Assembly: GCA_963965975.1 (NCBI GenBank)
Contig: OZ014414.1
Location: 558,001-622,000, forward strand
Source: Xestospongia bergquistia
Taxonomy: Eukaryota > Porifera > Demospongiae > Haplosclerida > Petrosiidae
Direction of reading: 5' to 3'
DNA: 64,000 nt
Below are positions 21 to 51,400 of this stretch, one piece after another (within the stretch, counting starts at the first letter, position 1; every line of letters starts with the position of its first letter). Made by a program: the position numbers and the translations under genes. The notes below the pieces were generated by a model that worked only from the letters and a program-made list of their open reading frames with translations, was not told the origin of the DNA and searched no databases.

Positions 21-3752
<3,732 letters not shown>

Positions 3753-21699: not shown

Positions 21700-24600
21700 T
21701 CACCAAAACTTAAGTCTGTCTTTAATAAATTGATAAATGTCTAACTTCTTAAAATACTCTTCATGTTGTTTGGATAAGTGTAGTTCTTGTATTGTAGTAT
21801 TCTCAACAAGTGTAGTACATATTGTCTTGATATCATCATTGTTCAGTGAAGTACCATAGAGACGTAGTTCTGTTAATGATTTAGTTGTATTTATTAGTTC
21901 AGCTATTGTACTGGTACTAACTGAAGTGATCTGAGGATTATCTCTTATGTCCAACAAAGTCAATGTTTGGTTTTTAGTGAGGCCTTCACAGATATATTGG
22001 ACACCATTATCAGTGATGTTACAGTTGATGAGTTCTAGTTTATCCAATGTCTTATTAATACTTAATATAGTAGACAAGTGACTGGTATCTTCATCTGTGA
22101 TAGTAACATTAATCAATATTAACACCTCAAGAGTAGTATTGGTAAAGAGAGCATCACTGATTTGTTTGATACCACCAGTAAGTGAACAGTAGCTAAGAAT
22201 TAGGCCTATCATTGTTTTATTAGTAGTTTGTAGCTCTGTTGATAATGTTGATATACATATACTGTCCAATGGAGTGCTGTGTATATCAAGTGTCATCACT
22301 GCACATTTACTGAGATTACTAATAATTACAAGAGCATTTTCAGGAGATGATGATCTGAGATTAATACGCCATCTACTTCCTTTGGTTTGTTGTTCTTTTA
22401 TTAATCTACTAACAACCTCTTCACATTGTTCAATAGTTGGTGAGATAAGCCAAACAATCTTTATATCATCTCTCCACTCAACTCTTCCAGTATGTCCTGT
22501 TATAAACAGAGTTAGTATGTAGATATAGTATACACATATAATATATAGTGTTATAAACTGTACTATATAAAACATTATAAGTTAAGTTCTAATGAACAAA
22601 TTACAGGGATTACCTCCTAATTTGGGATCATCATGAGATAATTCAGATTTAGCTAGTTGTAGTTCTGTATAATTTAGAGGGAATTGCCCACGGATTCCAT
22701 TCAGAGTCCCCTCACACCATCCTTCTTCAATCTATGAAAATATATAATATGAATAGAAATGCTCTTTAAATAATATGTTGACATAATGAATGGATGGACA
22801 AAAAGGATGTGTCCATACCTTAATGACATCTTTGATAACATCTCCAACATTTAGAGTTAATTCCACAGGATATACTTTGGTGAAAGAACGTTTGACAACA
22901 GCTTCTGTATAGACCACTAATACATTATTATAATGTAACTTTATCAAACATCATAACACAACATACCATAACCTGACTCTTTATCATCAGTTGAACCTTT
23001 TGTCTCATCTCTTAATTCATATATTGAAGACTCTACAATAAGTAATGACAATATAATTTGTATAATATATGTAGTCAGGAGTGTATGAACTAAAGGAGTG
23101 TTGAACATTCATATACTAACATGTACTATCTGTTATGACATGTCCATATCTTAGAATACCATATAAGGTATATGCTTTCATAGGCAAAGTGGTTGCTAAC
23201 TTTTGTGGTTGTACAATTTTATCATGTGATATTAAAAACTACAAGAGATGATCAGGACAAGACTAACAAAGAAAAGGTGAGTGAGACTAATTAAGAAGTA
23301 AATCTGTAAAGTTGTTTAGAAGTCATTGACTTGTTTGTATCTGTCACTAAAATAGTTTATTTGTAAATAACAACATGTGATTACATGGTTTAAGATCAAG
23401 TACCTACTATAATAACATTTCCATATATGGGCAATGGACACATCCTAAGACATAGATATGGTCACTTACCATTGATAGATACTGTGGACTCTTCTTGACT
23501 AGACTTATGAACTCCTTCATCAGTTAATGGTTTCTGAGGCTTTTGGATAAATGCTAAATTTAATAACAATATCATATAATGAGAAGTAACAATTATCTAC
23601 TAATATCAGTTACCTTTCAAACTTTGCTTTAACTCCTCAATCTGTTTGTCTCTCTCTCTTAATTGTAATGTCAATGATGTGATGATTTCTTGTAGTGTCT
23701 CTATCTCTCTTTGTCTCTCAACAGACACTGACAATAACTCCTTCTCAAAGACTATAATGAATATTCCATTAACACAATATAGTGTGTACATTATTAATAT
23801 CTCACCTTCTTTTTCTTTGATAGTATTTGTTAACTGTTCTATCTCTAAAATCTTTGCTCTGTTCATTTTAGTACTTGTTTCTAACAATTGTTTCAACTCA
23901 GACTCTATATACAAGAGAGAACAAGACAATACACAACATGTGTTGTTATGAACTCACCTTTACTTTCTGTGACACTAGACATTTCTAGTATTTTGTTTTT
24001 AAGTGTGTCTAGTTCCTCTTCAAGAGCTATAAAGAGAGATGTATTTATTATTGATATAAAATTTTAAAAGTATAAAAATATAAATAATAAAATATAATAA
24101 TATATAATAATAAAATTTATTATTATATTAGATTTCTCACCTTCCTTCATTGATAACAATGATTTCAAGTCATCAATCTCTCTTTGTTTATGTTCTAACA
24201 TTTGTTTTACTAAATTTAATTCTTCTTCAGTAGCTACAGTATATGATATCAATACAATGATATAAGCTGTGTTACATTAATAAGATATACTACCTTTCTT
24301 TCCTTGATATAGTTCTTTAATCTCCTTTTCTTTCATTAGTTTTTCATCTATAAAAAAATATTTGACAATATGTAGTAAATATAATTAATTATATTATATT
24401 ACAATATATATAATTCTACAAATGGAGCTAATTAAATAACTTTCTATCTCTATAGGACAAAAGTGATCTTATTATACTAAATGGTATATATTCCTTTATT
24501 AACTCAATCTACTAATGGATACATGATGTTTTAATAGTTTATTGTTTAATGTGTAATCATATCAAAGGTACTGTCATATTGTATTGGTCATATTGTACTA

Positions 24601-26625
24601 CAAAGTTAATTTACATGGTGGGTGTGTTATATCATTTCTTTTCTTTGTTTAAAGCAAACTGTTTGTTGATTGTGACATTAATTACTAAAGTCAGGTCTCT
24701 AAGAGTATTAGGATATCAAATGTTGTACCAAATAATAGAAGAGTAAACAATACATGATAAAATGTGTATTAAAAACATTCAAGACATAGTATCTTGTACT
24801 TTATTCCATAATGTTCAGTAATAACACATTACCTATTACGTCAAGATTGGACTGACCTTCACTGTCTCTAAGCTGGGATTTCAAATCATCCATTTCTCTT
24901 GTCATCTCTCTAATAGTTGTGTCCCTTGACTCCATTTTGTGTCTCAGATCCTCTAAATCTTCTTCAATAGCTCTCATCTCCTATAAGTAGTAAGGTAATT
25001 ATTATTTTGAAATGATTACTTCTAACCTTATCATCTTTGTACTTATCAAAAATAATATGATAGCCAATAGTAAGTTTAATGACTCCCATTTCCTTAAGTA
25101 AGTCAAGATTGCTTTTGGCAGCCATTAACAGAAAATCCATCAACCTTAGTGGAGCATAGCAAGTAACAATGATGGAGTTGCCTTCATTTACTGCTCTAAC
25201 TTGGACAGATTTTGCCATATCTTCAAAAGCCTTCGACAACAAACCTTTAATATGACGGAGTGTACATTCATCTGCCTTCCATTCCACAACAAACTCAATA
25301 CTTTCACAAATAAGATGAGAAGATGAACTTGTCTTGAAGTTTTGCTTAAGGCATATATCAGCTTTCACCTTCTCACAAAAAGTATCAACTCTTTTCTTGA
25401 ATTCTGTGATATGCTTTTCAGCTTCAGTGACTTCATAACAATCAACAATGGCTTCTAAGCAGCAAATATTAATGATGGTACATGAGTCTTGAACAATATC
25501 TATGACATTATCGAATGATTTGGCCGTACTCAATTGAGGTGCTAGCTCTTGGAAACACCTTCGAATGTACCTTTTCAGTTCATCAAGTGAAGGAATGGCA
25601 GCTTCAATGAGAGGTGCAACCTTATGAAAGAGATTTCCAAAGGTTACTCTCATTCGATCAAAATCATATTGATGTGTGGCCAGCACTGTGACTTGGGAAG
25701 GAAATGTTTGATCTATGTAACAAAATGAGAAGCAACAATAAAATAATATGTAAATTTATTTACTATATTCCTGGAGTATGTCTTGAGCAATCTGTACTAC
25801 TTCTTCTGATTTCAATAATATACTAGCGAACTTCTTTAATTTGTTTGGGTCTTTATACACTGTAGTAAACAGTGCTCTCAATGGACCATCTCCTAGTACA
25901 CCTCCCAATCTATTCACTTTATCTAATGTCTCCTTAGAGATCACTTTCTCTGTATATAACATCTGAACAACCTCCACAGGAAGAGTCAGTGATGAGAGCT
26001 TGTCAGTGTGTTTCTGTAACATTTGACAAGCTGGAGTAGAGAATTCTATAAGAAAAGGAAAAAAAAGTGAGTTGTCCTAATATATCATTATTGAGTTTCT
26101 TACTGAATTCCATTATTTTTTCAGCAGCAAAATTTTCTCCTATTTTGTAAAGGGCACCAGCTAACGAGTCCCATGTAGGACCTCCACTTTCAGTCACCTT
26201 GTCAGCTTTACTCAACCACAGAGTTAAACACTCTTGAAGACATCTCCCTACATCATCTTTATGGTTTGCCTCAATATCTTTCAGAGTGGGTGATAATAGA
26301 CCCAGTTGTAGACCAAGAGGAAACCATTTATGATTTGGAAAATGAACTTGCTTCAAAGCATCAACAACATCTTTCAAATTGTCAATACCTGTAATAAAGA
26401 CATTTTGTAAACCAATTTAGAAGTGATAATAAAGACATACTATCTATATTGATAGAACATAGATACATAAGTTATCAGACTTTTTCAGAGAAGGAGGAAT
26501 TTAAAATAAAACACACACTCAATAAATGATCCATTATATCAAGTACATTATGTACTTTATAAAAATGTATGAGTTGAGACGATTTTCTTACCTAGTTGAG
26601 GTTGAGAAAGTACTTTTAAAGACAT
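21700..26625 (-). CDS. DL2: death domain / CARD-like / coiled-coil / SH3 / LRR protein
   Basis: About 1,000 residues in roughly 15 exons. Exon 1 (26625-26592) gives MSLKVLSQPQL. Exon 2 (26388-26104) is a death domain (NHKWFPLGLQLGLL, IEANHKDDVGRCLQECLTLW). Exon 3 (26045-25764) is CARD-like. Exon 4 (25712-25027) is the shared module (CTIINICCLEAIVDCYEV, GNSIIVTCYAPLRLMDFL). Exons 24980-24857 and onward to about 23480 are coiled coil, one per small exon, all in phase 1. Two exons (about 22918-22820 and 22733-22615) form an SH3 domain: LTLNVGDVIKDVIK joined to IEEGWCEGTLNGIRGQFPLNY. The last exon (about 22500-21700) has RI-type LRRs. There is no membrane hairpin and no P-loop. Introns are near-identical to those of DL4 and DL5, so the duplication is recent or gene conversion is active. 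Confidence 0.8.
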
Positions 26626-26900
26626 AGCGTTTCTTTAAACTTTAATGAGTCAGGGTGGGGTTGCATACCACATTATGAATTCTATTATCTGAAAGATCAG
26701 ATATAATTATGTACATTATGAACAATTTTATAGAATAGCAACAGAGTACTACTAAATTTAAAACCACATGTTCTGTCTATAATTATTGTGATACTATAGA
26801 GGAGAAGTTCTATTCAGTATAACACAATATTTGGATGATGTAGTCATTAATAATACTATATTTTAAAGTTTAACATTGTGTATTATAAATAATATAAAAT
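26626..26900 (-). promoter_or_regulatory. 5' flank shared by DL2, DL4, DL5 and decayed copies
   Basis: The 275 nt upstream of the DL2 start resemble those upstream of DL4 (44472-44700), DL5 (53345-53560) and the decayed gene near 13320-13620. Shared blocks include GTCAGGGTGGGGTTGCATA and a later ACCACATGTTCTGTCTATAA-type block. Conservation outside the coding sequence suggests a promoter, though recent duplication alone could explain it. Confidence 0.4.
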
Positions 26901-26999
26901 TGTTATAATAAACATTATTAATATGCATACATAGATATTGTTACAAGAAGAGGAGTCTGTCCTGAACGCTCTCTTCAAGTTTCTCACAACTCTCCTTAT

Positions 27000-27180
27000 T
27001 GTTTCATTGTTAAGTGGTTATAAGATCTATTACAAAGAAGGGTTTACTCCTCAAACTGGTCTCATTAGTAGTCACAACTATTCAACTACAGTCTTAAGAA
27101 ATACATCTAGTTTCTTGTCACACATAATCAAAGGACTGACAGCAGGCAATTCATACATCATACATGTACAAGCTTTATAG
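27000..27180 (+). other. Inserted fibronectin type III-like coding fragment
   Basis: Read on the plus strand this encodes GYKIYYKEGF, then TTVLRNTSSFLSHIIKGLTA and GNSYIIHVQAL. That is the C-strand to G-strand pattern of an FN3 domain (Y-I-Y then L-x-x-G-x-x-Y-x-I-x-V-x-A). It replaces about 42 bp of the LRR exon: the LRR sequence is homologous up to CTCTCCTTAT on one side and resumes at TAAGTGTGTGACAAATTG on the other. It lies antisense to the host exon and is probably not translated. Confidence 0.55.
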
Positions 27181-27503
27181 TAAGTGTGTGACAAATTGTC
27201 ATAATATCATCATCTTCTAATGAAGTATTTTGAAGATATAATTCTATCAATGATGTTGTTGTGTTTACAAATTTAACTATTGTACTGGTACTAATAGTAG
27301 TGATCTGAGTGTTATTACCAACATTCAACTTAATAAGTGTTTGGTTTTTCATAAGTCCTTCACAGATATGTCTGAAGCCATTATCAGTGATATCACAATC
27401 AGATAGAACAGCTTCTTTCAGTGTCTTGTTGCTACTGAACATTTCAGACAAGTGAGACATATCTTCATCTGTTATAGTATTGTGTATAATATAGCTCTAA
27501 TCT

Positions 27504-27736
27504 ACCTGATTTGAAAAAAGGGGCCACTTCTGTCAAAACATTTGTGACATGACTTTTGAACAATCTACTGTTAAAACATCTCAAACATCTCAGTTTTGTA
27601 TACATACAGTTGATACATATGCATAACTATTCTACATGTATGTAAAACTGTTTTTTGTTATGTTTTAACAGTGTTTTTTTCACAAATCAGGTCACAAATG
27701 TTGTGACAGAAGTGGTCCCTTTTTTGGAAATCAGGT
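27504..27736. mobile_element. MITE-like element with about 46-bp terminal inverted repeats
   Basis: The left end starts ACCTGATTTGAAAAAAGGGG and the right end, in reverse complement, starts ACCTGATTTCCAAAAAAGGG. Both run into a nearly identical CCACTTCTGTCA-AACATTTGTGAC block. An inner inverted repeat (CTGTTAAAACA / TGTTTTAACAG) extends the foldback. Related intact LRR exons (56850 and 45170) show the uninterrupted target. No coding capacity; no clear target-site duplication. Confidence 0.8.
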
Positions 27737-28547
27737 CACAATTGATCTGTTAACACAGAGAGCATCTGTCAATGGTTTGATACCACCAGTAAGTGGAGAG
27801 GAAATAATATTTAAAACAATTTTGAAACAAGTTTTCTAAATTTAATTTTTTCATTTTATTATAATAATGTCATATTGCAATAAGAAGATCATGTTTATCA
27901 TAGATGGTGTAGTAGCCAATAGTGAGTTTAATTACTCCCATCTCTTTCAGTAAGTAAAGGTTGTCTTTAGCTGACATTAGCAAAAAGTCCATTAATTTTA
28001 ATGGAGCATAACAGATGATAGTAATGATTTTCCATCATCAATAGTTCTAACTTAAACAGACCTTGCCACACCCCTAAAAGCTTTTGAGAATAAACCTTTA
28101 ATATGATGGTGTGTGAATTTATCTGTTGTCCATTCCACTAAACATTCAATAGTGTCACAAATAAGATGAAGACATGACAGAGCTATTTCAAAGTTTTGCT
28201 TAAGGCATACATCAGCTTTAACATTTTTACAAAAATCAGCAACTTGTTTGTTGAATTTTTTGATGCATTGTTTAGCTTCAGTAATTTAATAGTGATCAAT
28301 AATGGTTTCTAAGCAACAAATGTTGATAATTGTACATTATTGAACTAACTTCATGACATCATCAAATAATTTAGCTGTACTCAATGGAGGTGCTAGCTCT
28401 TGGAAACACCATTCAAGGTATCTTTTTAGTTTGTCCAGTGAATAATAATAATAATTATTAAATTATTACTGAGGGTGGAATACAATGAATGAATTATTGG
28501 AACAGAAATGAATGAATTATTGGAACAGATTACTATGGAAACAAAGT

Positions 28548-31500
28548 CTATGACCAGAACATAAGTCTGTCTTTAATTACTTGATAACTTTCTAAGTTCT
28601 TACAATACTCTTCATGATGTTCAGATAGGCGAAATGTCTGTAATGTAGTATTTTCAATGAGTGCAGTACATATCGTCTTGATATCATCATTAGTCAGTGA
28701 AGTATCATAGAGTTGTATTTCTTTTAATGATGTAGTGGTCTTTATAAGGTCCATTATTGTAATGGTACTAGCTGAAGTAACCTGAAGGTTGTGGCTGATG
28801 TCCAATGTAGTCAGTGTTTGATTTTTAGTGAGACCTTCGCAGATATATTGGAGACCTTTATCAGTGACTTCACACTGAGGGAGTTGTAACTTTTCGAGTG
28901 ACTGGTTTTTAGCAAGACCTTCACTGATATGTCGAATACCATTATCGGTAATGTCGCAGGCAGAGAAATGTAGTACTTTCAATGTCTCATTAATACTTAA
29001 TATTACAGAAAAATGAATTGCATCTTCATCTGTGACAGTAATAACTGACATCACTAATTCCTCAAGTGCAGTATTTACAACGAGGGCGTCTCTGATTTGT
29101 TTGACATTGATACTATGAGAAAAACCTTTAAGACTTAATTTCTTTATTGTTTTATTAGATATGAGTATTTTCGACAATGCTGTCATAAATACATCATCCA
29201 ATGGAGTGTTTGTTGTATGAAGTTCTCTCACTGCACATTCATTGAGATTATTAATAATTAAAAGAGAATTTTCAGGAGACAATGACGAGAGAGTGATACT
29301 CCATTTTTTTCTTGCTTGTACTTCTTTCTTTAATCTGCTTACAACATCTTTACATTCTTCAGTATTTGATGATCTGAGATGAATCCAGCTACCATTATCA
29401 TTCCATTTAACTCTTGAAGTATCTCCTTTTAATTATAAAATAGAGTTAATATGTTATATAGTACAATACAGAGTTACAGACTAAAAACTTAAAATATATC
29501 TTAAGATATTTATATATCAGTGAGATACCTGTGTCTGACTTTTTATCATCATCTAAACTGCTTGGCTCTATCATTGAAGGATCTATAAATGTAATACAAA
29601 ATTATTAGCTAGCTACATAATCTTGGACTGTTGTTCACAATGAATTAACAGACAAGGTGCATGTGCTTTAATGTCTATTAGTGGTCTGTGTATGGGTACT
29701 GTATGTCATTTACAAATGAATCTAACTAATGTGTCTCTATAAATATAAACATAAATCAAGGTCAGTTGTATGCTAGCTTTGGTAGGTCAAAAAACTTAAA
29801 ATGCACGACATCTCATATCCCAAGTTATTTATATATCATTCATACCTGTGTCTGACTCTTTATCAACATCTAGAACACTTGACTCTACTTCTGAAGGCTC
29901 TAGACATATGATATAAAAATTATTAATTACGTGATCTTGGACTATTGTTCACTGTACGTTAAAAGATAAGATCTATGTGTAATGTGTAAGTACACACTAT
30001 CTAATTGACCAATGCCTCTGATTTCTTCCTAGTTGCTGCGTATATTGACATTTGTGAAAGAAAAATATCTAATACCTTTAGTCAAATCCTTGGCCTTTAG
30101 GATTAATTGCAATGCAATGTTATAACTATGTTAAACAGACATGATAGAAGACTACAATTACAAGAAAATAATTTGTATTTGTTCTTAATTTGTTATCTAA
30201 CAAACTATCTGTGGCTTAAAATTCCTGTTGCAATGTAAAGAAATTGAAATTGATTGTATGTACAAGACATCCTTTTTACTGATTCAATAAAAGTCACTAG
30301 CTTGAGATTAGAGCAGTAACAATTAAGCCAACCCATACAAATAGAAAAATGATTTATATAAACAGGATAAACAATTAAATTAAGAACCTAATACAAGCAT
30401 ATTTTTCTTAGGCCAATGCAATTGCCCTTTATAAGAACAAAAAGTGACGAATTGAGCTTGCTTCAGGTAATCTTGAAAATTTATCAGAGTTAAATAAAAG
30501 TCAAAAGGCTTAGCTAATGACAAAGAGTTACATTATTATACTTAATGTAAGAATAAAGAAATCATTATATGAGTATTCATGCATGAACAAGATCTTTAAT
30601 TTATATAATTAGCATGCTTATTTTCACCGATAGGTGCAGTGAACTCTTCTTGGGTAGAAGACTTTGTTTGGATTTCCTGAAGTCCCTGATCAGTTAATGA
30701 TTTACGACCCTTTGGTATAAATGCTAGATCTAGTGACAACATCATATAATGAGAAGTGACAATTATATCCTAATATCAGTTACCTTTCAAACTTTGTTTT
30801 AACTCCTCAATCTGTTTGTCTCTCTCTCTTAATTGTCCATTCAACAATGTGATTATCTCTTGAAGTGTCTCTACCTCTTTCTGTCTTTTGGTAGACACTG
30901 ACAATAACTCCTTTTCAATGACTATGAAACAAACACAATAACATAATATCATGTGTACATTATTAATATCTCACCTTCTTTTTTCTTGATAGTATTTGTC
31001 AACTGTTCTATCTGTAAATATTTTGCTCTGTTCATTTTAGTACTTGTTTCTAACAATTGTTTCAACTCAGACTCTATATACAAGAGAGAACAAGACAATA
31101 TACAACATGTGTTGTTATGAACTCACCTTTACTTTCTGTGACACTAGACATTTCTAGTATTTTGTTTTTAAGTGTGTCTAGTTCCTCTTCAAGAACTATC
31201 AATATAGGGATTATGAAAAATTATTAAATTACAAATTTTGTCAATAAAACAGAGATGAGTTGAATCTAAATTAGATTCCTAAAATACTCAATAATATCAC
31301 CAAAACGTCTGTTATTAATATTTTAATTCAGAAATAACAATATGTTAAAAGTTGATTTAGCTATTGGCTTTAAAATGCAATCATCAACATAAAAATGTTA
31401 GTTATCAATTTAAATAGATATTACTTTCTGATGTTTGATGTTCCTCTTTGAGTTTGTCTAATTCAATTTGTCTTTCCTTTTTTTCTAGTTGTAGCAAGTT

Positions 31501-34500
31501 CTTCATTTGGTCTGTTCATCAAAATATACTTTATTGTAAGTAAAATCAATATCTTTCTCACTTTCTTGACTCATAGATGGTTGATATATGTGACAGAAAA
31601 AATCTGAATAAAAAATCAAATCAAAGATCGTCAGGATATTGTTATATATAATAGAAATTAGTACCTGAGAAAAGCAAACCAGCTGCTTCTGAAAGGTAAG
31701 GTATATTATTCTCATCTCCTTGAACCTTTCCCCTCCATTCTATAATAAAGTACATTATAGTTATATCTATATAGATTGTACACTAGCTATTACAAACAGT
31801 CTATAACTGAAATATTTGCCCAAGCTCTATTAGTAAATATAACTTGCTGCGGCTATTTCTTGCAAGTATTATATAAAAATGACAATAATATATGTATAAG
31901 TAATTTTTAGCTTAAGTGCATGTCAGGACCATTTTCTAGTAATCCTTTATATTATAAATGGAAAATTAATCTAGATGTATAGACAAGGCTGAATTTGATT
32001 AGATTTATTTTGAAATTTATTTTATATTATTGATGATGTTTATACTAAATATATGAATGGTATAAAAATTTAACTACTAATATAATGACATTATTATTTT
32101 GATTTAAAACATAACACACTACTTTCTCAAAGTGTAAGAGTATAATGAACTATTCTATTATTCCCACTGACTAACCTTCTTGGTAAGATTTTTTTACAAG
32201 ATCCTTTCTTTCTTTAGACGTCAAACACAATCCTGATGCTACAACATTATACTCATCATCAGTAAAACTGAAACTTAAAAAAGGCTCTTCATAATACTTT
32301 AGACAATAGTCCAGCTTTTTCTCTCTTTTTAAAACTCCTTGAATATTTTCAGAGGCTCTGGCAACCTTACTACCATTTATAGCCCAACTACTCCTGAACC
32401 TTGTAGCTTTCTTTTCTTCAATCAGCTTTATCAAAATTAATGCTTCAGGTTGTTGTGAGTAAGACCTAATAGAATTGTTAAAAATAATGCATCATATACC
32501 TGAAGGGCATATATATTGGGTAACATAAATGTGATGTTTTAAAAGTCAGTAAGTGGTACTAAACCAACTTGCAAAAAATATAAATTTTAACTTACAGTAT
32601 AGTAACTAAATCAGTATTGATCCTGAAAGCTTCTTTTGATGGTACCCATTCCAAAAAAACAGATTTCTGTGGATTGAACACTTCTTTGTTGATAGTAAAG
32701 AATAGTTCTAAGCATCCTTCCTCAAAATGGTCAAAATAAAAAAATAGATCTATTGATCTTTAGCATATTTGCAAGGTTAAACTTGATGGTTTTCAGTTCT
32801 ATACCAGTCAGTGTAATTTTTTCGAATACTTTCAGGAATATGCTAATTCTCTTTGATTGAGAATAACATTGTGAAGATGACTTTAAAGGAATTTCAAAAA
32901 TAGACCTTCTGAGGTAAGGAATAAGGGTGTTAATTTGATATTCTTGCATTAATTTATTCTCTTGTTCAGTGCCAAATTTATTAACAAGAGCTACAAATAT
33001 TTCATCATTGAACCAAGAGCTCCTTTTAGAAATTGCAATAAATACATCCTTCACATTATCATTTCTATTAAACTCAAAAGGAGGATTGTTGCCTACATGT
33101 GTTAGAAGAAACAGTTGTAAATCCTTTGGATCAACACTTCGCTCACTAAAGGATCTACTAAGCTTTAAAACAAGAGATGCAAAGGCTTCAGTAACAAACT
33201 TATATTCATTTAGTAAGTTATTGATTATTGTTTCCTTCTCAATCTCTGACATGTCGTCCCAGTTAGGATAACATCTTTCAGGAAACAGTTGCAAAGTCTC
33301 CTCTTCATCAGGCTTTGTTGAAGCATTCTTTGCATATTTCATAACACATTCTGCCACATCTTGAAGTTTAGTTTTTAAGCAAGCTCTTATAAGTGCTAAA
33401 TATGTTGCATTCTTTCCCATCTTTTTTCTCCAGGTAGACAACACTGCCACCTTTCGCTCTTCATCACAACTCTTGTCTTGTGTAATAGATTTCAGTTCAC
33501 TTTCAGAGAATTGAAGTTGACGACCAAATTCAATGTAGTCACAAATTTTCAAAGGAATTTCAATGATAAAATCTACTTTATCTGAACATGGTTTATTTAT
33601 ATCTGTAATTTTCATTTCATGTTTACTCAATAAGTCTGATAATTCTAAAAGAAGACAATAGTTAATACTTGAAGAATAAATTCTTATGAATAAAAATTAT
33701 TTATCTAATATGTAATAAATTTTAAATTATAATTAAGACAAGTATTCATACTAATAGCTTATTCTGAAGACTATCATGTCAATTCCAAAATCAAGTCTTT
33801 TTAGTTTTTACTTTTTCTGTATTATGTCATAAATTAATTCCAGATAATTAAGTACATAGTTTTTTGTAGTGCATGTTAGCTTAGTAGTGGATTTTGGTAC
33901 ATGGTTCTTTTGGTCTTGTATGATTTGGTACAAAAAGTGTTTTGTTATTGTTGATTCATCTTTATATCATCACTATCTCATGTCTGTTCATCTACAAATA
34001 TCACATTTTTATATATATGTTATATGAACATACTCTCAATGGGACACGTACATATTCATTTATAGGCTTATGTAATATTACAAGGTGACTAATGACTTGT
34101 TGACTGACCTTTTGAGCATTTCATTACTAGCTGACTAGTCAATACAGACAATGTTTGATCTTTCTCAAGGACTTCAATAAACACATAAAGATTGTCTGCA
34201 CTCAATTCTATTTGAGACTGTACACAGCACAATAGTTTACTGACTTGATAGCTATGTTCAATACCAGGACTGGAAATATCTCTATGAACTTGAGAATTGA
34301 TTAAATTAACTTGATGTAACTGTCCAGCAAATGAAATAGGATTCATTATTGCACTGCTAATATCAGCAAAATGTGTAACAAAAGCTTTATATTCTTCACT
34401 TTTACTTGAAGGATGATAATGAACCTATTACAAATATGAAATATAATGATATTAGTGTTAGAAGATTCTAACATTGATAAAGATATTTGAAATTAGCACT

Positions 34501-37680: not shown

Positions 37681-37727
<47 letters not shown>

Positions 37728-39178: not shown

Positions 39179-39266
<88 letters not shown>

Positions 39267-39579: not shown

Positions 39580-42500
39580 TCACCAAAACTTAAGTCTGTC
39601 TTTTATAAACTGATAATTGTCTAACTTCTTACAATACTTTTCATGTTGTTTAGATAACAATAGATTTTGTATTGTAATATTCTCAACAAGTGTAGTACAT
39701 ATTGTCTTGATATCATCATTGTTCAGTGAAGTACCATAGAGACGTAGTTCTGTTAATGATTTAGTTGTATTTATTAGTTCAGCTATTGTACTGGTACTAA
39801 CTGAAGTGATCTGAGGATTATCTCTGATGCTCAACAAAGTCAATGTTTGGTTTTTAGTGAGGCCTTCACAGATATATTGGACACCATTATCAGTGATGTT
39901 ACAGTTGGCGAGATGTAGTCTATCCAATGTCTTATTAATACTTAACATAGTAGACAAGTGACTGATATCTTCATCTGTGATAGTAACATTAATCAATGTT
40001 AACACCTTAAGAATAGTATTGGTAAAGAGAGCATCACTGATTTGTTTGATACCACCAGTAAGTGAACAGTAGCGAAGAATTAGGTTTATCATTGTTTTAT
40101 TAGTAGTTTGTAGCTCTGTTGATAATGTTGACATACATATACTGTCCAATGGAGTGCTGTGTATATCAAGTGTCTTCACTGCACATTTACTGAGATTACT
40201 AATAATTACAAGAGCACTTTCAGGAGATGATGATCTGAGACTAATACGCCATCTACTTTCTTTGGTTTGTTGTTCTTTTATTAATCTACTAACAACCTCT
40301 TCACATTGTTCAAAAGTTGGTGAGATAAGCCAAACATTCTCTATATCATCTCTCCACTCAACTCTTCCAGTATGTCCTGTTATAAACAGAGTTAGTATGT
40401 AGATATAGTATACACATATAATATTATAGTGTTATAAACTGTACTATATAAAACATTATAAATTAAGTTCTAATGAACAAATTACAGGGATTACCTCCTA
40501 ATTTGGGATCATCATGAGATAATTCAGATTTAGCTAGTCGTAGTTCTGTATAATTTATAGGGAACTCCCCACGGATTCCATTCAGAGTCCCCTCACACCA
40601 TCCTTCTCCAATCTATGAGAATATATAATATGAATAGAAATGATCTTTAAATAATATGTTGACATAATGAATTGATGAACAAAAAGGATATGTCCATACC
40701 TTAATGACATCTTTGATAACATCTCCAACATTTATAGTTAAATCCTCAGGATCTACTTTGGTGAAAGAATATTTGACAACAGCTTCTGTATAGACCACTA
40801 ATACATTATTATAATGTAACTTTATGAAACATCATAACACAACATACCATAACCTGACTCTTTATCATCAGTTGAACCTTTTGTCTCATCTCTTAACTCA
40901 TATATTGAAGACTCTACAATAAGTAATGACAATATAATTTGTATAATATATGTAGTCAGGAGTGTATGAACTAAAGGAGTGTTGAACATTCATATACTAA
41001 CATGTACTATCTGTTATGATAAGTCCTTATCTTAGAATACCATATAAGGTATATGCTTTCATAGACAAAGTGGTTACTAACTTTTGTAGTTGTACAATTT
41101 TATCATGTGATATTAAATACTACAAGAGATGATCAGGACAAGACTAACAAAGAAGAGGTGAGTGACACTAATTAAGAAGTAAATCTGTAAAGTTGTTTAG
41201 AAGTCATTGACTTGTTTGTATCTGTCACTAAAATAGTTTATTTGTAAATAACAACATGTGATTACATCGTTTAAGATCAAGTACATACTAAAATAACATT
41301 TCCATATATGGGCAATGGACACATCCTAAGACATAGATATGGTACTATGACACTTACCATTGATAGATAGTGTGGACTCTTCTTTACTAGACTTATGAAC
41401 TCGTTCATCAGTTAATGGTTTTTGAGGCTTTTGGATAAATGCTAAATTTAGTAACAATATCATATAATGAGAAGTAACAATTATCTACTAATATCAGTTA
41501 CCTTTCAAACTTTGCTTTAACTCCTCAATCTGTTTGTCTCTCTCTCTTAATTGTAATGTCAATGTTGTTATTATTTCTTGTAGTGTCTCTATCTCTCTTT
41601 GTCTCTCAACAGACACTGACAATAACTCCTTCTCAAAGACTAGAAAGAATATTCCATTAACACAATATCATGTGTACATTATTAATATCTCACCTTCTTT
41701 TTCTTTGATAGTATTTGTCAACTGTTCTATCTGTAAAATCTTTGCTCTGTTCATTTTAGTACTTGTTTCTAACAATTGTTTCAACTTAGACTCTATATAC
41801 AAGAGAGAACAAGACAATACACAACATGTGTTGTTATGAACTCACCTTTACTTTCTGTGACACTAGACATTTCTAGTATTTTCTTTTTAAGTATGTCTAG
41901 TTCCTCTTCAAGAGCTATAAAGAGAGATGTATTTATTATTGATATAAAATGTTAAAAATATAATAAAATTTATTATTATATTAGATTTCTTACCTTCCTT
42001 CATTGATAACAATGATTTCAAGTAATCAATCTCTCTTTCTTTATGTTCTAACATTTGTTTTACTAAATTTAATTCCTCTTCACTAGCTACAGTATATGAT
42101 ATCAATACAATGATATAAGCTGTGTTACATTAATAAGATATACTACCTTTCTTTCCTTGATATAGTTCTTCAATCTCCTTTTCTTTCATTAGTTTTTCAT
42201 CTATAAAAAAATATTTGACAATATATAACAAATATAATTAATTATATTATATTACAATATATATAATTCTACAAATGGAACTAATGAAATAACTTTCTAT
42301 CTCTAGGACAAAGTGATCTTATTATACTAAATGGTATATATTCCTTTATTAACTCAATCTACTAATGGATACATGATGTTTTAATAGTTTATTGTTTAAT
42401 GTGTGATCATATCAAAGGTACTGTCATATTGTATTGGTCATATTGTATCACAAAGTTAATTTACATGGTGGGTATGTTACATTACTTCTTTTCTTTGTTT

Positions 42501-44471
42501 AAAGCTAACTGTTTGTTGATTGTGACATTAATTACTAAAGTTAGGTCTCTAAGATTATTAGGAATTTAGGATATCAAATGTTGTACCAAATAATAGAAGA
42601 GTAAACCATACATGATAAAATGTGTATTAAAAACATTCAAGACATAGTATCTTGTGCTTTATTCCATAATGTTCATTAATAACACATTATCTATGTGATT
42701 GGACTGACCTTCACTGTCTCTAAGCTGGGATTTCAAATCATCCATTTCTCTTGTCATCTCTCTAATAGTAGTGTCCCTTGACTCCAGTTTGTGTCTCAGA
42801 TCCTCTAAATCTTCTTCAATAGCTCTCATCTCCTATAAGTAATAAGGTAATTATTATTTTCAAATGATTATTTCTAACCTTATCATCTTTGTACTTATCA
42901 TAAATAATATGATAGCCGATAGTAAGTTTAATGACTCCCATTTCCTTAAGTAAGTCAAGATTGCTTTTGGCAACAATTAACAGAAAATCCATCAACCTTA
43001 GTGGAGCATAGCAGGTAACAATGATGGAGTTGCCTTCATTTACTGCTCTAACTTGGACAGATTTTGCCATATCTTTAAAAGCCTTCGACAACAAACCTTT
43101 AATGTGACGGAGTGTACATTCATCTGCCTTCCATTCCACAACAAACTCAATACTTTCACAAATAAGATGAGAAGATGAAGTTGTCTTGAAGTTTTCCTTA
43201 AGGCATATATCAGCTTTCACCTTCTCACAAAAATCATCAACTCTTTTCTTAAATTCTGTGATATGCTTTTCAGCTTCAGTGACTTCATAACGATCAACAA
43301 TGGCTTCTAAGCAGCAAATATTAATGATGGTACATGAGTCTTGAACAATATCTATGACATCATCGAATGATTTGGCCGTACTCAATTGAGGTGCTAACTC
43401 TTGGAAACACCTTCGAATGTACCTTTTCAGTTCATCAAGTGAAGGAATGGCAGCTTCAATGAGAGGTGCAACCTTATCAAAGAGATTTCCAAAGGTTACT
43501 CTCATTCGATCAAAATCATATTGATGTGTGGCCAGCACTGTGACTTGGGAAGGAAATGTTTGATCTATGTAACAAAATGAGAAGTAACAATAAAATAATA
43601 TGTAAATTTATTTACTATATTCCTGGAGTATGTCTTGAGCAATCTGTACTACTTCTTCTGATTTTAATAATATACTAGCGAACTTCTTTAATTTGTTTGG
43701 GTCTTTAGACACTGTAGTACACAGTGCTCTCAATGGACCTTCTCCTAGTACACCTCCCAATCTATTCACTTCATCTAATGTCTCCTTAGAGATCACTCTC
43801 TCTGTATATAACATCTGAACAATCTCCATAGGAAGAGTAAATAATGAGAGCTTGTCAGTGTGTTTCTGTAACATTTGACAAGCTGGAGTGGAGAATTCTA
43901 TAAAAAGGAGAAAATAACAAGTGACTATATCATTACTGAGTTTCATACTGAATTCCATAATTTTTTCAGCACCAAAATGTTCTCCTATTTTGTGAAGAGC
44001 ACTAGCTAATGAGTCCCAAGTAGGACCTCCATTCTCATTGACCTTGTCAGCTTTACTCAACCACAGAGTTAAACACTCTTGAAGACATCTCCCTACATCA
44101 TCTTTATGGTTTGCTTCAATATCTTTCAGAGTGGGTGATAATAGACCCAGTTGTAGACCAAGAGGAAACCATCTATGATTTGGAAAATGAACTTGCTTCA
44201 AAGCATCAACAATATCTTTCAAATTGTCAGTACCTGTAATAAAAGACATTTTGTAAACCAATTTAGAAGTGATAATAAAGACATACTATCTATATTGATA
44301 GAACATAGGTACATAAGTTATCAGACTTTTTCAGAGAAGGAGGACTTTAAACTAAAACACACACTCTATAAGTGATCCATTATATCAAGTACATTATGTA
44401 CTTTATAATAATGTATGAGTTGAGATGATTTTCTTACCTAGTTGAGGTTGAGAAAGTACTTTTGAAGTCAT
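39580..44471 (-). CDS. DL4: death domain / CARD-like / coiled-coil / SH3 / LRR protein
   Basis: Same exon plan as DL2. ATG 44471-44469 gives MTSKVLSQPQL. The death domain (about 44234-43950; NHRWFPLGLQLGLL) and CARD-like fold (to about 43620) follow, then the module (43564-42880; CTIINICCLEAIVDRYEV). Coiled-coil exons run from about 42830 to 41370. The SH3 spans two exons (about 40798-40700 and 40613-40500; INVGDVIKDVI, EGWCEGTLNGIRGEFPINY). The LRR exon is about 40380-39580. No stop or frameshift was seen in the exons I followed. Against DL2 and DL5, the LRR differs mainly at variable positions of the strand motif, for example LDRLHLANC where DL2 has LDKLELINC. Confidence 0.8.
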
Positions 44472-44771: not shown

Positions 44772-45225
44772 AAGAGGAGTCTGTCCTGAATGTTCTCCTC
44801 AAGCTTATCACAACTCTCCTTATATTTCTTGGACAATACTAGTCTATTGTCTTGTTTGTAGTAAGTGTGTGACAAATTGTCATAATATCATCATCTTCTA
44901 ATGAAGTATTTTGAAGATATAATTCTATCAATGATTTTGTGTTTATAAGTTTAACTATTGTACTGGTACTAATAGTAGTGATCTGAGTGTTGTTACCAAT
45001 GTTCAACTTTATAAGTGTTTGATTTTTCATAAGTCCTTTACAGATATGTCCAAAGCCATTATCAGTGATATCACAATCAGATAGAACAGCTTCTTTCAGT
45101 GTCTTGTTACTACTGAACATTTCAGACAAGCGAGTCATATCTTCATCTGTTATAGTATTGTGTAATATCTCTAATCTGTCTATTGATCTGTTAACACAGA
45201 GAGCATCTGTCAATAGAATACTATG
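44772..45225 (-). pseudogene. Truncated LRR exon fragment
   Basis: It reads LTDALCVNRSIDRLEILHN, ITDEDMTRLSEMFSSNKTLK and onward to TTNKTID, then a stop caused by a small deletion near 44838. In a shifted frame the C-terminal KESCDKLEENIQDRLLFL remains. It is most like the DL6 LRR exon. No upstream exons are present; the sequence breaks off near 45215. It sits between the DL4 5' flank and NUP188 copy 3, matching the position of the fragment at 26948-27815 upstream of DL2. Confidence 0.82.
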
Positions 45226-45499
45226 GTATTCACTTATGCTCTAAAGAAATAGCTATAGAGTACTTTTAAACAACATGTTCTGTCTATAATTATTGTGATG
45301 CTATCAGAGGAGAAGTTCTATTCAGTATAACACAATATTTGGATGTTGTAATAGTCATTTATTTAGTTAGTTAAGCTGTAAGGTGTCTCTATAGATACAA
45401 GAGTGAGGAATAACTCTGGGATTTCCTCCTCACCCACAGAAGTTAGTAATACCAACAAATACATTTTGACAATAATATCAGTCCAATACAAACAATACA

Positions 45500-48260
45500 A
45501 ACATCATAGTAACACTGATAACCACACCCAATTCATCTTCGTTAGGTACAGTAATTAAACCAATAGTATCAGCTGATAACATCAATGGAGATAGGCCGAG
45601 GGTAAGGTATTCTATAAAAAAGAAGATCACATGACTATCATATGATTACAATATCTACTATCAAAAAAACCTCTTTTAAATAGCACTCTAGGTTGGGTAA
45701 GTACCCATGTCCCTTCCTGGGGTCCCACATCCAGTTTTCCAGCTAACTCATGAGGTGCTAGGTCCTCAGTATACCAAGTGACCTCCGATAACAAAGTGTG
45801 AATATTGTGGGCGGAGACTTCATCATGTGACAATGAACAGAGCATTTCAATAACATCAATATCTAGTGGTAGTCTGTGATAAAAATGGACATATAACAAG
45901 GTTCAATGGATGCATAAAGAACAAAGATGATACAGACATGACTATATCTATGATTTACTTTTTCAAAGCTGATGTTAGTAGTAAACCTAAATCTGATTCT
46001 AACCCCTATATATAAGAAATAACATTCTTATTACTAGTATCTTTATAATTCCATACTTACATTCTCCCATAGCACCAGTCTCAGTCTGGGATGAGTAAAT
46101 AGTTGAGCACTAATCTTCAACAATACCTAATACAGATAGAGTTAAAAATAATCTGATTATGTATGTACTTTAGGATCTCAAAAAGATTCTTCACTGAAGA
46201 GAGAGACAACAAGAGCTAACAATGTATATAACACACTCTTACATACACCAGCTATAGGCTAAAAGAAGTCAATAAAATATAGTTCATCTATTAATCATTT
46301 ACACACTTACTCTATCTCCAGAAAAGAAAGAACTCTCTAACATACTTAATAAAAATTCAAACACTCTTCCTTTGAGTGCTCTGTCTCCTAGCAACCTCAC
46401 ATGATTTATGTTAGTATTGTCATCATCTGTTGTCATGTAACAGAACAAAGACCATGACAAGAGGAGAGGGGTGTGGTAAGTGTCTAAATGTTCAATGATC
46501 CCTTCAAGAGTCTACAATATGGTATACAATAACAATGTTAATAATATCAGTTTATCAGACTTTGTAGTGAGCAGTGATGTCTGGATTTAACATATGATGT
46601 TGTTGTAATCTGAGAAAGAGAGAGAGAGAGAGAGAGAGAGTAAATAACTGATTTCTTTCACAAACTTTTCTTTTCTTTCTTGATTTTGTTGTAACCAGTC
46701 TAAATCAAATGATTCTAAAATAATCAATGAACACATGTGACTGATGTGTTGAGATAAAACATTATAAGATACTTCAATAGTATATTGTCCTCTAGGTTGA
46801 TAACCAAAACCTATTTTCTATGAGGACAGAGACAAACAGACTAAATTGTTTTAGTAATATAAATTCTATTACTTGGAATAGTTTAATTTTCTCAATAATA
46901 GATATTACAGGTAGTTCATAGTCTTTATAAAATAACAACAATATCTCTAATAGTTCATACTAAATATAAAGAGAAGATATTACAGTTAATATAATAAAGT
47001 ATGTTTCCATAGTAACAATGTATTCACAGTGATAACTATCAATGAAGACACCATATATGGTAAGTATGTGTACCTGTTCTAATAATAGTTGATGTAACCA
47101 CTTCTTCTCTTCTTCAGGACTCTATAAATAATTACAGTAAATATATGTACATGATGTAAGTGTACTATAAATAATAACAAGTACTATATATAGTAACATA
47201 TTGATACATATATGTTACTATATATAGTAACATATACAAGTACCTAAGTACCTCTATAGTAGCTGGTAGTTCTGTAGTAGTAGTTATCTCAAACTGTTTC
47301 CAAATCTATTACAATACAATAAAAGATACAATAGAGTTATAATACTTACTACTGGTATGAATATACTTCCATCAAAATGGAGGACTTCAAGACAATTACT
47401 ATAAAGTTCCTATATAATAGAGAGAGATATATAATGATATAGAGAACATTTACTAACTCTATAAGGATAATTAACATCTTGCCAGTAACCTAGAAACTGT
47501 TTAATACATCTATCAAATGAAAAAATTATCAATTTTTAAATCCAGTAACCAATATGATTGTCCATTTGTCCATTAAACTGACTATCCATTGTCTCTTTAT
47601 ACATCCATTTATCAAATCTATTACATTAATCATTCATCCATTTTCTTCATACCTTAACAGATATAGTCTCTCTTTATGATAATACTCTTCAACACAAACC
47701 AGTAACACTTGTCGTTCTAACTGGTTTGACAAACGAGTATTAATATCATCAAATGAACCACGATATGATTCCAATAGAAAGTTCTGTAATAACTGAAGAC
47801 ATTGTATCTGATCTAAATACTAATAGACAATAATAATAAATGATTAATATATAAAGTACTTACTAATCTCTGACTAATTTCTAATACAAACTCTAACTTT
47901 TTTCCTTTTATATCTTTTGATGATTTTAACTTTGTCTCTGATACAGAACTATTGAATTAACAGATAAGATAGGTGTGGTCACAAGTACATGTTACCTGGG
48001 TGATTTAAAATACAACAGTCCTTCAGTTAATTGAGATTTGTTGGACTTTACTTCAACTAATATCAGCTCCTATGTTGACAGAGAGGGAGGGAGAGAGAGA
48101 TCAACATCAACAATAACTTAATACATTCTCTACTCACAGTATCTTATATAGCAGAATGAACTGTTACCTAGTTATTACAAGTATACAGTCAAACTGACAA
48201 AGAGAGATAGCTCTTACCTCTTAAACATATTTTAATATCAAAGCATGAATATGGCGGGAA
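45500..48260 (-). pseudogene. NUP188 5'-half copy 3 (decayed)
   Basis: This is the longest copy, matching NUP188 from about 8490 to 11345. The exon with LAPHELAGKLDVGPQEGTWV is intact near 45790-45690. Exon 2 near 48180-48130 has lost about 26 bp and reads into a stop (CTATATAAG where NUP188 has CTATACAAG). The exon near 46665 has a damaged donor region. The copy breaks off at about 45520, inside the sequence matching NUP188 8491, with a short unrelated stretch beyond. No full NUP188 can be produced. Confidence 0.85.
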
Positions 48261-48445
48261 GTAATGGGCGGAGCATAACCACAAATTAATTATTATTAAT
48301 GTTAATTAAAATATTAGAATGCAATAAACAGAAATGAATAAATTATTACAATAGAATCAGATTACTATGGAAACAAAGTCTATTAAGATATTAAAAGACA
48401 TCAACAGAAACTTAAACTAAATTGAAAGTAAATGTATAGAACAAA

Positions 48446-51400
48446 CTATTTTATGTCTGGTTGGAACTTAAGTCTGTCTTTTATAAACTGATAATTGTCT
48501 AACTTTTTACAATACTCTTCATGTTGTTTGGATAAGTGTAGTTCTTGTATTGTAGTATTCTCAACAAGTGTAGTACATATTGTCTTGATATCATCATTGT
48601 TAAGTGAAGTACCATAGAGACGTAGTTCTCTCAATGATTTAGTTGTATTTATTAGTTCAGCTATTGTACTGGTACTAACTGAAGTGATCTGAGGATTAGA
48701 TCTGATGTTCAAATAAGTCAATGTTTGGTTTTTAGTGACGCCTTCACAGATATATTGGACACCATTATCAGTGATGTTACAATTGATGAGACCTAGTGTA
48801 TCCAATGTCTTATTAATACTTAACATAGTAGACAAGTGACTGGTATCTTCATCTGTGATAGTAACATTATATAACGATAACATCTTAAGAGTAGTATTGA
48901 TAAAGAGAGCATCACTGATTTGTTTGATACCACCAGTAAGTGAAGAGTAGCTAAAAGTTAGGTTTTTCATTGTTTTATTAGTAGTTTGTAGCTCTGTTGA
49001 TAATGTTGACATACATATACTGTCCAATGGAGTGCTGTGTATATCAAGTAGCCACACTGCACATTTACTGAGATTACTAATAATTACAAGAGCACTTTCA
49101 GGAGATGATGATCTGAGTTTAATACACCATCTACTTCCTTTGGTTTGTTGTTCTTTTATTAATCTACTAACAACCTCTTCACATTGTTCAATAGTTGGTG
49201 AGATAAGCCAAACAGTCTCTATATCATCTCTCCACTCAACTCTTCCAGTATGTCCTGTTATAAACAGAGTTAGTATGTAGATATAGTATACACATATAAT
49301 ATATAGTGTTACAAACTGTACTATATAAAACATTATAAATTAAGTTCTAATGAACAAATTACAAAGATTACCTCCTAATTTGGGATCATCATGAGATAAT
49401 TCAGATTTAGCTAGTCGTAGTTCTGTATAATTTATAGGGAACTCCCCACGGATTCCATTCAGAGTCCCCTCACACCATTCATCATCAATCTATGAAAATA
49501 TATAATATGAATTTTAAATAATATGTTGACATAATGAATGGATGGATAAAAAGGATGTGTCCATACCTTAATAACATCTTTGATAACATCTCCAACATTT
49601 ATAGTTAAATCATGAAAATATACTTTGGTGAAAGATTGTTTGACAACAGCTTCTGTATAGACCACTAATACATTATTATAATGTAACTTTATGAAACATC
49701 ATAACACAACATACCATAACCTGACTCTTTATCATCAGTTGAACCTTTTGTCTCATCTCTTAACTCATATATTGAAGACTCTACAATAAGTAATGACAAT
49801 ATAATTTGTATAATATATGTAGTCAGGAGTGTATGAACAAAAGAAGTGTTGAATGTTCATATACTAACATGTACTATCTGTTATAACAAGTCCTTATCTT
49901 ACAATACCATATAAGGTATATGCTTTCATAGACAAAGTGGTTACTAACTTTTGTGCTTGTACAATTTTATCACGTGATATTAAATACTACAAGAGATGAT
50001 CAGGACAAGACTAACAAAGAAAAGGTGAGTGAGACTAATTAAGAAGTAAATTTCTAAAGTTGTATAGAAGTCATTGACTTGTTTGTATCTGTCACTAAAA
50101 TAGTTTATTTGTAAATAACAACATGTGATTACATGGTTTAAGATCAAGTACATACTAAAATAACATTTCCATATATGGGCAATGGACACATCCTAAGACA
50201 TAGATATGGTACTATGACACTTACCATTGATAGATAGTGTGGACTCTTCTTGACTAGACTTATGAACTCCTTCATCAGTTAATGGTTTCTGAGGCTTTTG
50301 GATAAATGCTAAATTTAGTAACAATATCATATAATGAGAAGTAACAATTATCTACTAATATCAGTTACCTTCCTTTAACTCCTCAATCTGTTTGTCTCTC
50401 TCTCTTAATTGTAATGTCGATGTTGTTATTATTTCTTGTAGTGTCTCTATCTCTCTTTGTCTCTCAACAGACATTGACAATAACTCCTTCTCAAAGACTA
50501 GAAAGAATATTCCATTAACACAATATCATGTGTACATTATTAATATCTCACCTTCTTTTTCTTTGATAGTATTTGTCAACTGTTCTATTTGTAAAATCTT
50601 TGCTCGGTTCATTTTAGTACTTGTTTCTAACAATTGTTTCAACTCAGACTCTATATACAAGAGAGAACAAGACAATACACAACATGTGTTGTTATGAACT
50701 CACCTTTACTTTCTGTGACACTAGACATTTCTAGTATTTTGTTTTTAAGTGTGTCTAGTTCCTCTTCAAGAGCTATAAAGAGAGATGTATTTATTATTGA
50801 TATAAAATGTTAAAAATATAATAAAATTTATTATTATATTAGATTTCTCACTTTCCTTCATTGATAACAATGATTTCAAGTAATCAATCTCTCTTTCTTT
50901 ATGTTCTAACATTTGTTTTACTAAATTTAATTCCTCTTCACTAGCTACAGTATATGATATCAATACAATGATATAAGCTGTGTTACATTAATAAGATATA
51001 CTACCTTTCTTTCCTTGATATAGTTCTTCAATCTCCTTTTCTTTCATTAGTTTTTCATCTATAACAAAATATTTAACAATATATAACAAATATAATTAAT
51101 TATATTATATTACAATATATATAATTCTACAAATGGAGCTAATGAAATAACTTTCTATCTCTATAGGACAAAGTGATCTTATTATACTAAATGGTATATA
51201 TTCCTTTATTAACTCAATCTACTAATGGATACATGATGTCTTAATAGTTTATTGTTTAATGTGTGATCATATCAAAGGTACTGTCATATAGTATTTGTCA
51301 TATTGTATAAAAAAGTTAATTTACATGGTGGGTGTGTTATATCATTTCTTTTCTTTGTTTAAAGCTAACTGTTTGTTGATTGTGACATTAATTACTAAAG

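Follow-up and report, generated by a model that had tools for sequence, protein, structure and literature searches.

Variable concave faces on near-constant leucine-rich repeat scaffolds, probably shaped by positive selection, in a large family of Death-SH3-LRR genes

Introduction

In the sponge Amphimedon, a lineage-specific gene expansion with a Death-like/TRADD-N/SH3-LRR architecture (LRR, leucine-rich repeats) has been described, in which PDZ domains also occur and whose C-terminus is called variable and often fast-evolving (PMC8195603). We report here on three genes of similar organisation, DL2, DL4 and DL5, found in a stretch of 64,000 nucleotides of Xestospongia bergquistia (hereafter the window, C4:558001-622000 of a 146.46-Mb eukaryote assembly in 21 contigs). 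A preliminary description of the window had claimed that differences between their LRR exons gather at the x positions of the LxxLxLxxC strands, on an almost constant scaffold and next to introns that hardly change, and had proposed diversifying selection or targeted mutation as the cause.

Lamprey variable lymphocyte receptors bind antigen on the diversified concave face of an LRR domain whose scaffold is conserved; they are somatically assembled, extracellular, and carry LRRNT and LRRCT caps. The DL genes have in common with them the conserved scaffold and the diverse concave face, but are whole germline genes with Death and SH3 domains. No Pfam match to LRRNT or LRRCT was found in the four LRR exons scanned (DL1, DL2, DL3 and DL6), and a Death domain lies upstream.

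In plant hypervariable nucleotide-binding LRR receptors (hvNLRs), entropy peaks at the x positions of LxxLxLxx, on the concave face of the LRR, and marks the likely binding site; the high-entropy sites include aromatic residues such as W (PMC8226289). These receptors are reported to vary among NLR alleles and in one or two surface clusters (PMC8226289), whereas variation among the DL paralogues extends to almost every strand, and they were not found to contain a nucleotide-binding domain. For the HET-D/HET-E genes of the NWD family in Podospora, repeats homogenised by concerted evolution, with a few surface residues under positive selection, are described as a non-self recognition repertoire (PMC1805685). 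There, single repeats of a fungal NACHT-WD40 protein are exchanged, whereas in the DL genes the exchanged unit is apparently the LRR exon and parts of it. Zebrafish NLR-B30.2 genes number hundreds of copies, with domain-specific conversion histories and positive selection in the recognition domain (PMC4852459), but B30.2, not the LRR, is held to be that recognition module, and a NACHT domain is present, while none was found in the DL genes.

The DL genes share the domain order of the Amphimedon expansion: a Death domain is present (23.7 bits in DL2), as is SH3 followed by LRR, the TRADD-N-like region has no profile match, and one locus of the family, L022, has PDZ-like frames before its LRR exon. 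The architecture is already published (PMC8195603); new here are the hypervariable concave face of the LRR and the cassette behaviour of its exon. The terms positive selection, gene conversion and hypervariab- are absent from the main text of that paper. In the literature on sponge or Amphimedon LRR, Death-LRR, SH3-LRR, TRADD-N, allorecognition and LRR conversion, in a search that most subscription journals lay outside, no title or abstract start among those listed describes the pattern in this family.

Results

Differences between DL2, DL4 and DL5 collect at outward strand residues

The LRR exons of DL2 (21703..22497), DL4 (39583..40377) and DL5 (48449..49255) were located on the minus strand, and all strand strings quoted earlier are present in them. 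The DL2 exon encodes N-terminal cap strands and seven ribonuclease inhibitor-type (RI-type) repeats. In what follows, x codons are the 35 canonical x positions of the LRR strands; the 42 outward codons are these 35 plus seven outward positions in the two N-terminal cap strands, which were picked after the variability and the model had been seen.

Over the 265 codons compared among the three exons, 49 were variable, 39 by non-synonymous and 10 by synonymous changes. Nineteen of the 39 non-synonymous codons were x codons (hypergeometric P 1.6×10−9), which confirms the clustering claimed in the preliminary description, and 22 belonged to the outward set. The proportion of non-synonymous differences (pN) at x codons was 0.206, 0.273 and 0.317 for the three pairs, compared to 0.019-0.023 outside the outward codons; the last two strands vary little. 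In terms of pN the scaffold is near-constant as described, although 17 of the 39 non-synonymous changes lie outside strand positions. That the introns hardly change was too strong a statement: those of the 3′ part, taken together with 18 bases past the stop codon, differ by 2.7%, 4.4% and 4.1%, about the synonymous rate. Non-synonymous change at x codons exceeds both this intron divergence and synonymous change. As a control, pN was below the synonymous proportion (pS) in nine of nine comparisons over the Death, second helical and TRADD-N-like exons of the same three genes. Within the trio alone, the ratio of non-synonymous to synonymous changes at x codons was not separable from that elsewhere (Fisher P 0.16 with 35 codons, 0.07 with 42); the wider family does separate them.

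The pattern extends to a large family

A protein search of the genome itself with the DL2 LRR exon gave at least 148 match rows (144 of 418 candidates scored), 11 with an in-frame stop and 137 without; at least four exons are split over two rows, and with candidates left unscored the family count is a lower bound. A DNA search, with 40 of 220 candidates scored, gave at least 14 copies (DL2 among them) of no less than 90% identity. The fetched loci held 77 distinct exon sequences. Twelve intact close copies of the DL2-type exon, the DL2/DL4/DL5 group, make up set A, and 58 exons of a second clade, 62-70% identical to DL2 and open over more than 255 codons, make up set B. The seven others were excluded (DL1, DL3, DL6, one L012 exon and three broken copies), three partial hits were also dropped, and the identical exon pairs L068/L069 and L082/L083 were each counted once. 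Clade B lies mostly at C4:8.43-9.63 Mb; together with C4:0.32-0.62 Mb, this region contains half of A and nearly all of B.

An AlphaFold2 (AF2) model of the DL2 LRR, built on an alignment of 49 sequences, has eleven strands and a mean predicted local confidence (pLDDT) of 94.7. Its first twelve Foldseek matches were RNase inhibitor, NLRP3, NLRP14, a cytoplasmic-lattice chain and NOD2 (E 1.9×10−9 to 7.7×10−9, TM by query 0.53-0.80). The LRR profile PF13516 scored below its cut-off in DL2 and above it in DL1, DL3 and DL6. As judged from the model, the predicted fold of the exon is RI-type (NLR-like), with strand/helix repeats of about 28 residues and LxxLxLxxC/N strands.

Residues were classed as outward, buried, helix or loop from this model and hydrophobic parity. 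The automatic rule called the buried first-position residue V67 outward and the x-position residue 68 buried, errors that work against the result. Mean entropy of outward strand residues was 1.13 bits in A and 1.80 bits in B, compared to 0.28 and 0.23 for buried strand, 0.24 and 0.17 for helix, and 0.30 and 0.35 for loop residues; none of 20,000 random residue sets of the same size matched the outward value. When the outward register was moved by one residue entropy was 0.25-0.49, and when moved by two it was 0.84-1.57, a two-residue periodicity which, on the predicted structure, is that of a beta-sheet. In set B the scaffold is about 97% constant, and some 33 hypervariable residues lie nearly all on one face. 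These sites are enriched in Y (13.6% vs 1.7%), R (11.9 vs 1.5) and W (4.3 vs 1.1). The 58 distinct B exons carry 56 different 35-residue faces, with 26 to 52 distinct haplotypes per strand.

The same distribution was found among relatives in the protein database, where 539 were found and 120 listed. Fifty-four of the 64 entries P0004-P0067 were compared, leaving aside own copies and those shorter than 285 residues and keeping P0061, which is nearly identical to the family copy C4_2625. Mean entropy was 1.33 bits at x positions compared to 0.27 elsewhere; of the 35 columns with the highest entropy, 22 were x positions.

Probable positive selection on the outward codons

Over all pairs, pN/pS at the 42 outward codons was 2.14 in A (codon bootstrap 1.29-4.49) and 3.36 in B (2.39-4.90). 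Outside the 35 x codons it was 0.66 and 0.99, respectively, and 0.57 and 0.64 when the cap strands and the tail were also removed. A self-written codon model of the MG94 type, run on fixed FastTree trees with scaled branch lengths, gave an omega at outward codons of 3.7-5.0 for A and 7.3-18.0 for B, compared to 0.49-0.61 elsewhere. A value of one was rejected in all four fits (2dlnL, twice the log-likelihood difference, 29.5 and 29.6 for A; 253.6 and 377.3 for B), and a separate fit on the 35 codons agreed (3.4-5.0 for A, 6.7-9.1 for B). In A, pN at x codons was 0.279 over the twelve copies, against an intron divergence of 0.051 over nine. At the level of single pairs, L091 and L085, both of set B, differ at 23 codons, all non-synonymous. 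Neither a dN/dS at or below one at these sites nor an even spread of differences over the exon was thus observed, and the diversifying selection proposed earlier is supported by an excess of non-synonymous over synonymous change in the 12 A and 58 B copies as well as in the trio.

The LRR exon behaves as a cassette

For clade B, nine loci were fetched with 6 kb, seven of which were compared at the TRADD-N-like exon (L021 gave no hit and L026 was split). In 14 of the 21 gene pairs this exon is 37-49% identical, against an identity of 96-98% for the LRR scaffolds. The two pairs that reach 93-95% at the TRADD-N-like exon have x identities of 0.54 and 0.57, within the range of distant pairs (0.34-0.63). 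Among 20 B copies compared with their flanks, similarity tails off some 120 bp before the LRR exon and about 200 bp after it. A comparable contrast was seen in A. Besides DL2 and DL5, ten copies could be aligned to DL4 in both its 3′ and 5′ parts; nine of them, including a broken one, are 86-98% identical to it in the 3′ part and 74-79% through the greater portion of the 5′ part, and C4_2625 is 94% and 92% identical. The faces of B differ at 18.0 of 35 x positions between exons with 0-1 synonymous scaffold differences and at 18.5 between exons with 9-12, and distance correlations from strand to strand are between −0.08 and 0.17, so that strands vary almost independently. These data suggest that the LRR exon acts as an exchanged or homogenised cassette. 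The exchange is inferred from identity contrasts because recombination tests of the PHI type were not decisive.

Over 3792 aligned columns, two B loci, L047 and L048 (C4:8.872 and 8.795 Mb), show 17 mismatches and two gap positions, and all 17 mismatches lie in one 104-bp tract spanning two strands, with none in the other ~3.7 kb. The tract affects ten codons, all non-synonymous, two of them between strands. The nearby exon pairs L068/L069 and L082/L083, 73,989 bp apart, are identical, so that the region is either a segmental duplication of recent date or a tandem arrangement of two haplotypes. No exact donor of the tract was found: the nearest other copies were 95% and 93% identical over 131 bp, among the best 40 of 146 candidates for each. 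Searches of the whole genome with 33-base patterns for strands R0 and R1 of L047 and R1 of L048 each returned a single exact match, at the query copy. The next best match had one mismatch for L047 R0 and two for L047 R1, and there was none within two for L048 R1; strand R0 of L048 was checked against the fetched exons, where the nearest was at two mismatches. The simplest reading of the tract would be conversion from a copy absent in this assembly; it could also have been made by an active process.

Selection weighed against mutation, age and relaxed constraint

Several observations weigh against the combination of positive selection and cassette exchange. Two of the three closest B pairs have no x change: L095 and L070 differ by one non-synonymous and three synonymous codons, and in the close pair L059/L025, with eight non-synonymous and one synonymous codons, none of the eight is at an x position, which runs counter to what the family shows. 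The database entry P0061 and C4_2625, of which it may be an allele, differ at 3 of 246 residues, one of them outward. An extra rate term at outward codons was 1.25-1.81 and reached significance in one of four fits (P 0.48, 0.24, 0.004 and 0.11), for B with one of its two trees. The codon model assumes a single tree though exchange is inferred, and its branch lengths were scaled, not refitted. Broken copies were excluded from both A and B, and a contrast with the pseudogene C4_3392 was uninformative: outward codons hold 5 of its 24 private changes, and 31 of 110 among the twelve copies that are functional (P 0.61; many-state columns were not counted). As to exchange, the x differences of B partly track scaffold distance (r 0.25), reaching 21.1 of 35 where exons are at least 13 differences apart, and the PHI-type tests gave no clear distance effect (P 0.24 and 0.72 for B; 0.25 for A, 0.036 for its scaffold). 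Finally, third-base T/C diversity in B was 0.058 at hypervariable codons and 0.017 in the scaffold (ratio 3.3, interval 1.5-6.5, P 0.0005; weighted, 0.038 vs 0.017), while in A it was 0.050 and 0.044. This leaves room for some extra age or mutation at the hypervariable sites of B.

How much of the variation mutation could explain is best judged from the three codon bases. At the 33 hypervariable codons of B, diversity at bases one, two and three is 0.435, 0.394 and 0.168, and in the scaffold 0.026, 0.028 and 0.025; the first two bases are thus raised about 15-fold (8-11-fold in A) and the third about 7-fold. Such a rise would be in line with an active process in which retroelement-type mutagenesis, a deaminase or the like mutates the strand codons and selection only filters the products, and two further features fit it: neighbouring x sites are weakly linked, with an excess information of about 0.1 bit at one or two codons, and the L047/L048 substitutions are confined to their tract, without an exact donor in the assembly. 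However, 92% (B) and 94% (A) of third-base differences at hypervariable codons change the amino acid, compared to 18% and 35% in the scaffold. Where two copies share bases one and two of a codon, the silent difference at the third base is, in B, 0.034 at hypervariable codons vs 0.021 in the scaffold, a 1.7-fold rise, and in A 0.026 vs 0.048, or 0.55-fold. A codon-wide mutator is disfavoured because it would shift silent bases too. In several B columns, moreover, the third base is the same in all copies or in all but one, while the first two vary (NNC at 14 and 222, NNT at 47, NNA at 98, 155, 246 and 251), and the L047/L048 tract includes two changes outside strands, as a copied tract would. 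Retroelement-type targeted mutagenesis confines variation to template adenines, and this adenine-specific form was rejected, the third-base A being kept at the four NNA columns of B, with no search aimed at a template or a reverse transcriptase. Targeted mutation, the second option of the preliminary description, consequently appears very improbable, and positive selection would fit the codons better because silent third-base change at hypervariable codons stays near the scaffold level.

Alternatively, balancing selection might preserve old variation at the x sites, which would be older rather than faster, with the scaffold evened out by gene conversion. The raised T/C diversity of B is in line with this, as is the fact that x differences hardly rise between exons whose scaffolds are up to 12 synonymous differences apart. 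Silent diversity that is two to three times deeper cannot, however, explain a 15-fold rise at the first and second bases; the other silent measure rises 1.7-fold in B and not at all in A; and strand haplotypes are many among the 58 copies, not few, old and shared. We hold this account to be unlikely. Since silent change rises at most two- to three-fold where the first two bases of B rise some 15-fold, the contrast points to selection on amino acids. A mere relaxation of constraint would leave the concave residues free to vary, and LRR surface residues are indeed not required for the fold. Neutral sites cannot, though, outpace introns and synonymous sites, as the x codons of the trio do (pN 0.21-0.32 vs 0.027-0.044 for introns), omega exceeds one in both sets, and residue choice in B is skewed to Y, R and W. 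We dropped this explanation as scarcely credible; the rates refute it, except in the case of strongly constrained introns.

Variability of the SH3 domain

In the group-A loci the SH3 domain is also variable on its likely binding side, in stretches which we take to be the RT loop and the n-Src loop and in the residues before FPxN. The pN/pS was 1.72 in nine of 13 copies (C1_1623, C4_4020, C3_3842 and the broken C4_3392 being excluded), with a one-sided bootstrap P of 0.03 and a 95% interval of pN-pS that barely touches zero. The SH3 loops may be a second diversified surface. In C4_4020 there is a stop in the SH3 stretch, and in C1_1623 the first SH3 exon is one base shorter; the LRR exons of both (loci L017 and L016) are open. 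At L022 (C4:9112360-9118300), two open frames that look PDZ-like by eye, at about 3657-4089 in gene orientation, stand before the LRR exon in place of SH3.

Organisation of the DL genes and their surroundings

From 5′ to 3′, the exons encode Death, a second helical domain, a helical plus RRM-like (TRADD-N-like) region, coiled-coil-like segments, SH3 and LRR; all DL features below are on the minus strand. The Death domain frame of DL2 (26003..26416) matches PF00531 with 23.7 bits for a cut-off of 22.6; in DL4 (43608..44285, with the second helical domain) the match, 21.2 bits, is slightly below the cut-off, and the DL5 frames 52791-53156 and 52466-52828 (together 52466..53156) are homologous to the Death and second helical exons of DL2 and DL4. 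The SH3 domain is encoded by two exons in DL2 (22819-22904 and 22614-22731, spanning 22614..22904 with the intron) and in DL4 (40700-40785 and 40495-40612, spanning 40495..40785), immediately 5′ of the LRR exon in the latter. Exon boundaries were placed by eye on splice signals, and the assignment comes from the joined DL4 peptide (PF00018, E 2×10−8, 34.1 bits vs a cut-off of 22.9). In DL4, putative coiled-coil exons, with boundaries by eye, run with their introns from 42709-42832 to 41502-41639 (41502..42832).

The helical plus RRM-like exon lies at 25030..25713 in DL2, 42882..43565 in DL4 and 51740..52423 in DL5. It gave no Pfam TRADD-N match. In DL4 a beta-alpha-beta-beta-alpha-beta order is predicted over residues 134-223; on a five-sequence alignment only, the model has a block pLDDT of 54-73 over residues 131-220. 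Its partial matches include ribosomal protein S6 and other ferredoxin-like folds, all with E above 0.001, and TRADD is absent among the 50 structural matches listed. A serine at the start of beta3 is near the position of the turn serine described for TRADD-N in PMC8195603. The third domain is a likely candidate for TRADD-N.

No NACHT domain was found with Pfam in the 17 proteins and pieces of the window that were scanned, and an NLR identity of the DL genes was rejected on that ground. NACHT expansions are reported in every sponge analysed in PMC12909245, and at least 95 NACHT matches occur genome-wide here (103 of 156 candidates scored); none of those listed falls in the LRR clusters at C4:0.32-0.62 Mb or C4:8.43-9.63 Mb. 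Elsewhere, a family LRR exon with one stop (C4:8005276-8006040) stands between NACHT matches at C4:7.998 and 8.009 Mb, so that LRR exons of this family may also occur near NLR genes.

Other parts of the window belong to more distant relatives or to other genes. Also on the minus strand, the LRR exons of DL1 (14035..14811, about 60% identical to DL2), DL3 (28554..29426) and DL6 (56448..57182) are more distant paralogues, and partial LRR frames at 27158..27496 and 44839..45240 are family fragments. A separate gene among the DL genes, at 32731-33696 on the same strand, has a clear Death domain (PF00531, E 4.5×10−11). Open frames on the plus strand at 53917-55727, between DL5 and DL6, gave no Pfam match above cut-off in the two of three frames scanned, and a run of 200 N at 7801-8000 is masked sequence or an assembly gap.

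Discussion

We consider it quite probable that DL2, DL4 and DL5 belong to a large germline family in which positive selection keeps the LRR concave face variable while the scaffold is homogenised as a cassette. They would be receptors of an intracellular type, with no NACHT domain found, whose single-exon RI-type LRR domain offers its concave sheet as a putative variable recognition surface. Two forces would then act on this exon. On one side it would be spread and homogenised between genes, in clade B together with some 120 bp of upstream intron and 200 bp downstream, by duplication and, most likely, ectopic gene conversion, so that the scaffold stays near-identical. On the other, strong positive selection would keep altering the outward strand residues, until nearly every copy has its own face. 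In the proposed working, a ligand would bind the concave face, and perhaps also the SH3 groove, and the Death and TRADD-N-like modules would assemble a signalling complex; an immune or non-self recognition role would follow the same line.

A bolder proposal, which we regard as rather doubtful, is that an early-branching animal possesses an anticipatory, antibody-like germline repertoire. More than one hundred LRR faces would sit on a small number of near-constant scaffolds and be renewed as tracts about the size of a strand, like the one that separates L047 from L048, are replaced between exon cassettes; an active process might take part, and individuals might differ greatly.

For highly specific recognition in an animal that lacks antibodies, the family offers a molecular candidate in quantitative terms, in an architecture other than that of NLRs. 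Three questions become directly testable: what such animals recognise, be it microbes, symbionts or kin; whether their specificity is passed on in the germline or arises somatically; and by what means the frame of a gene family can be kept uniform while its face diversifies.

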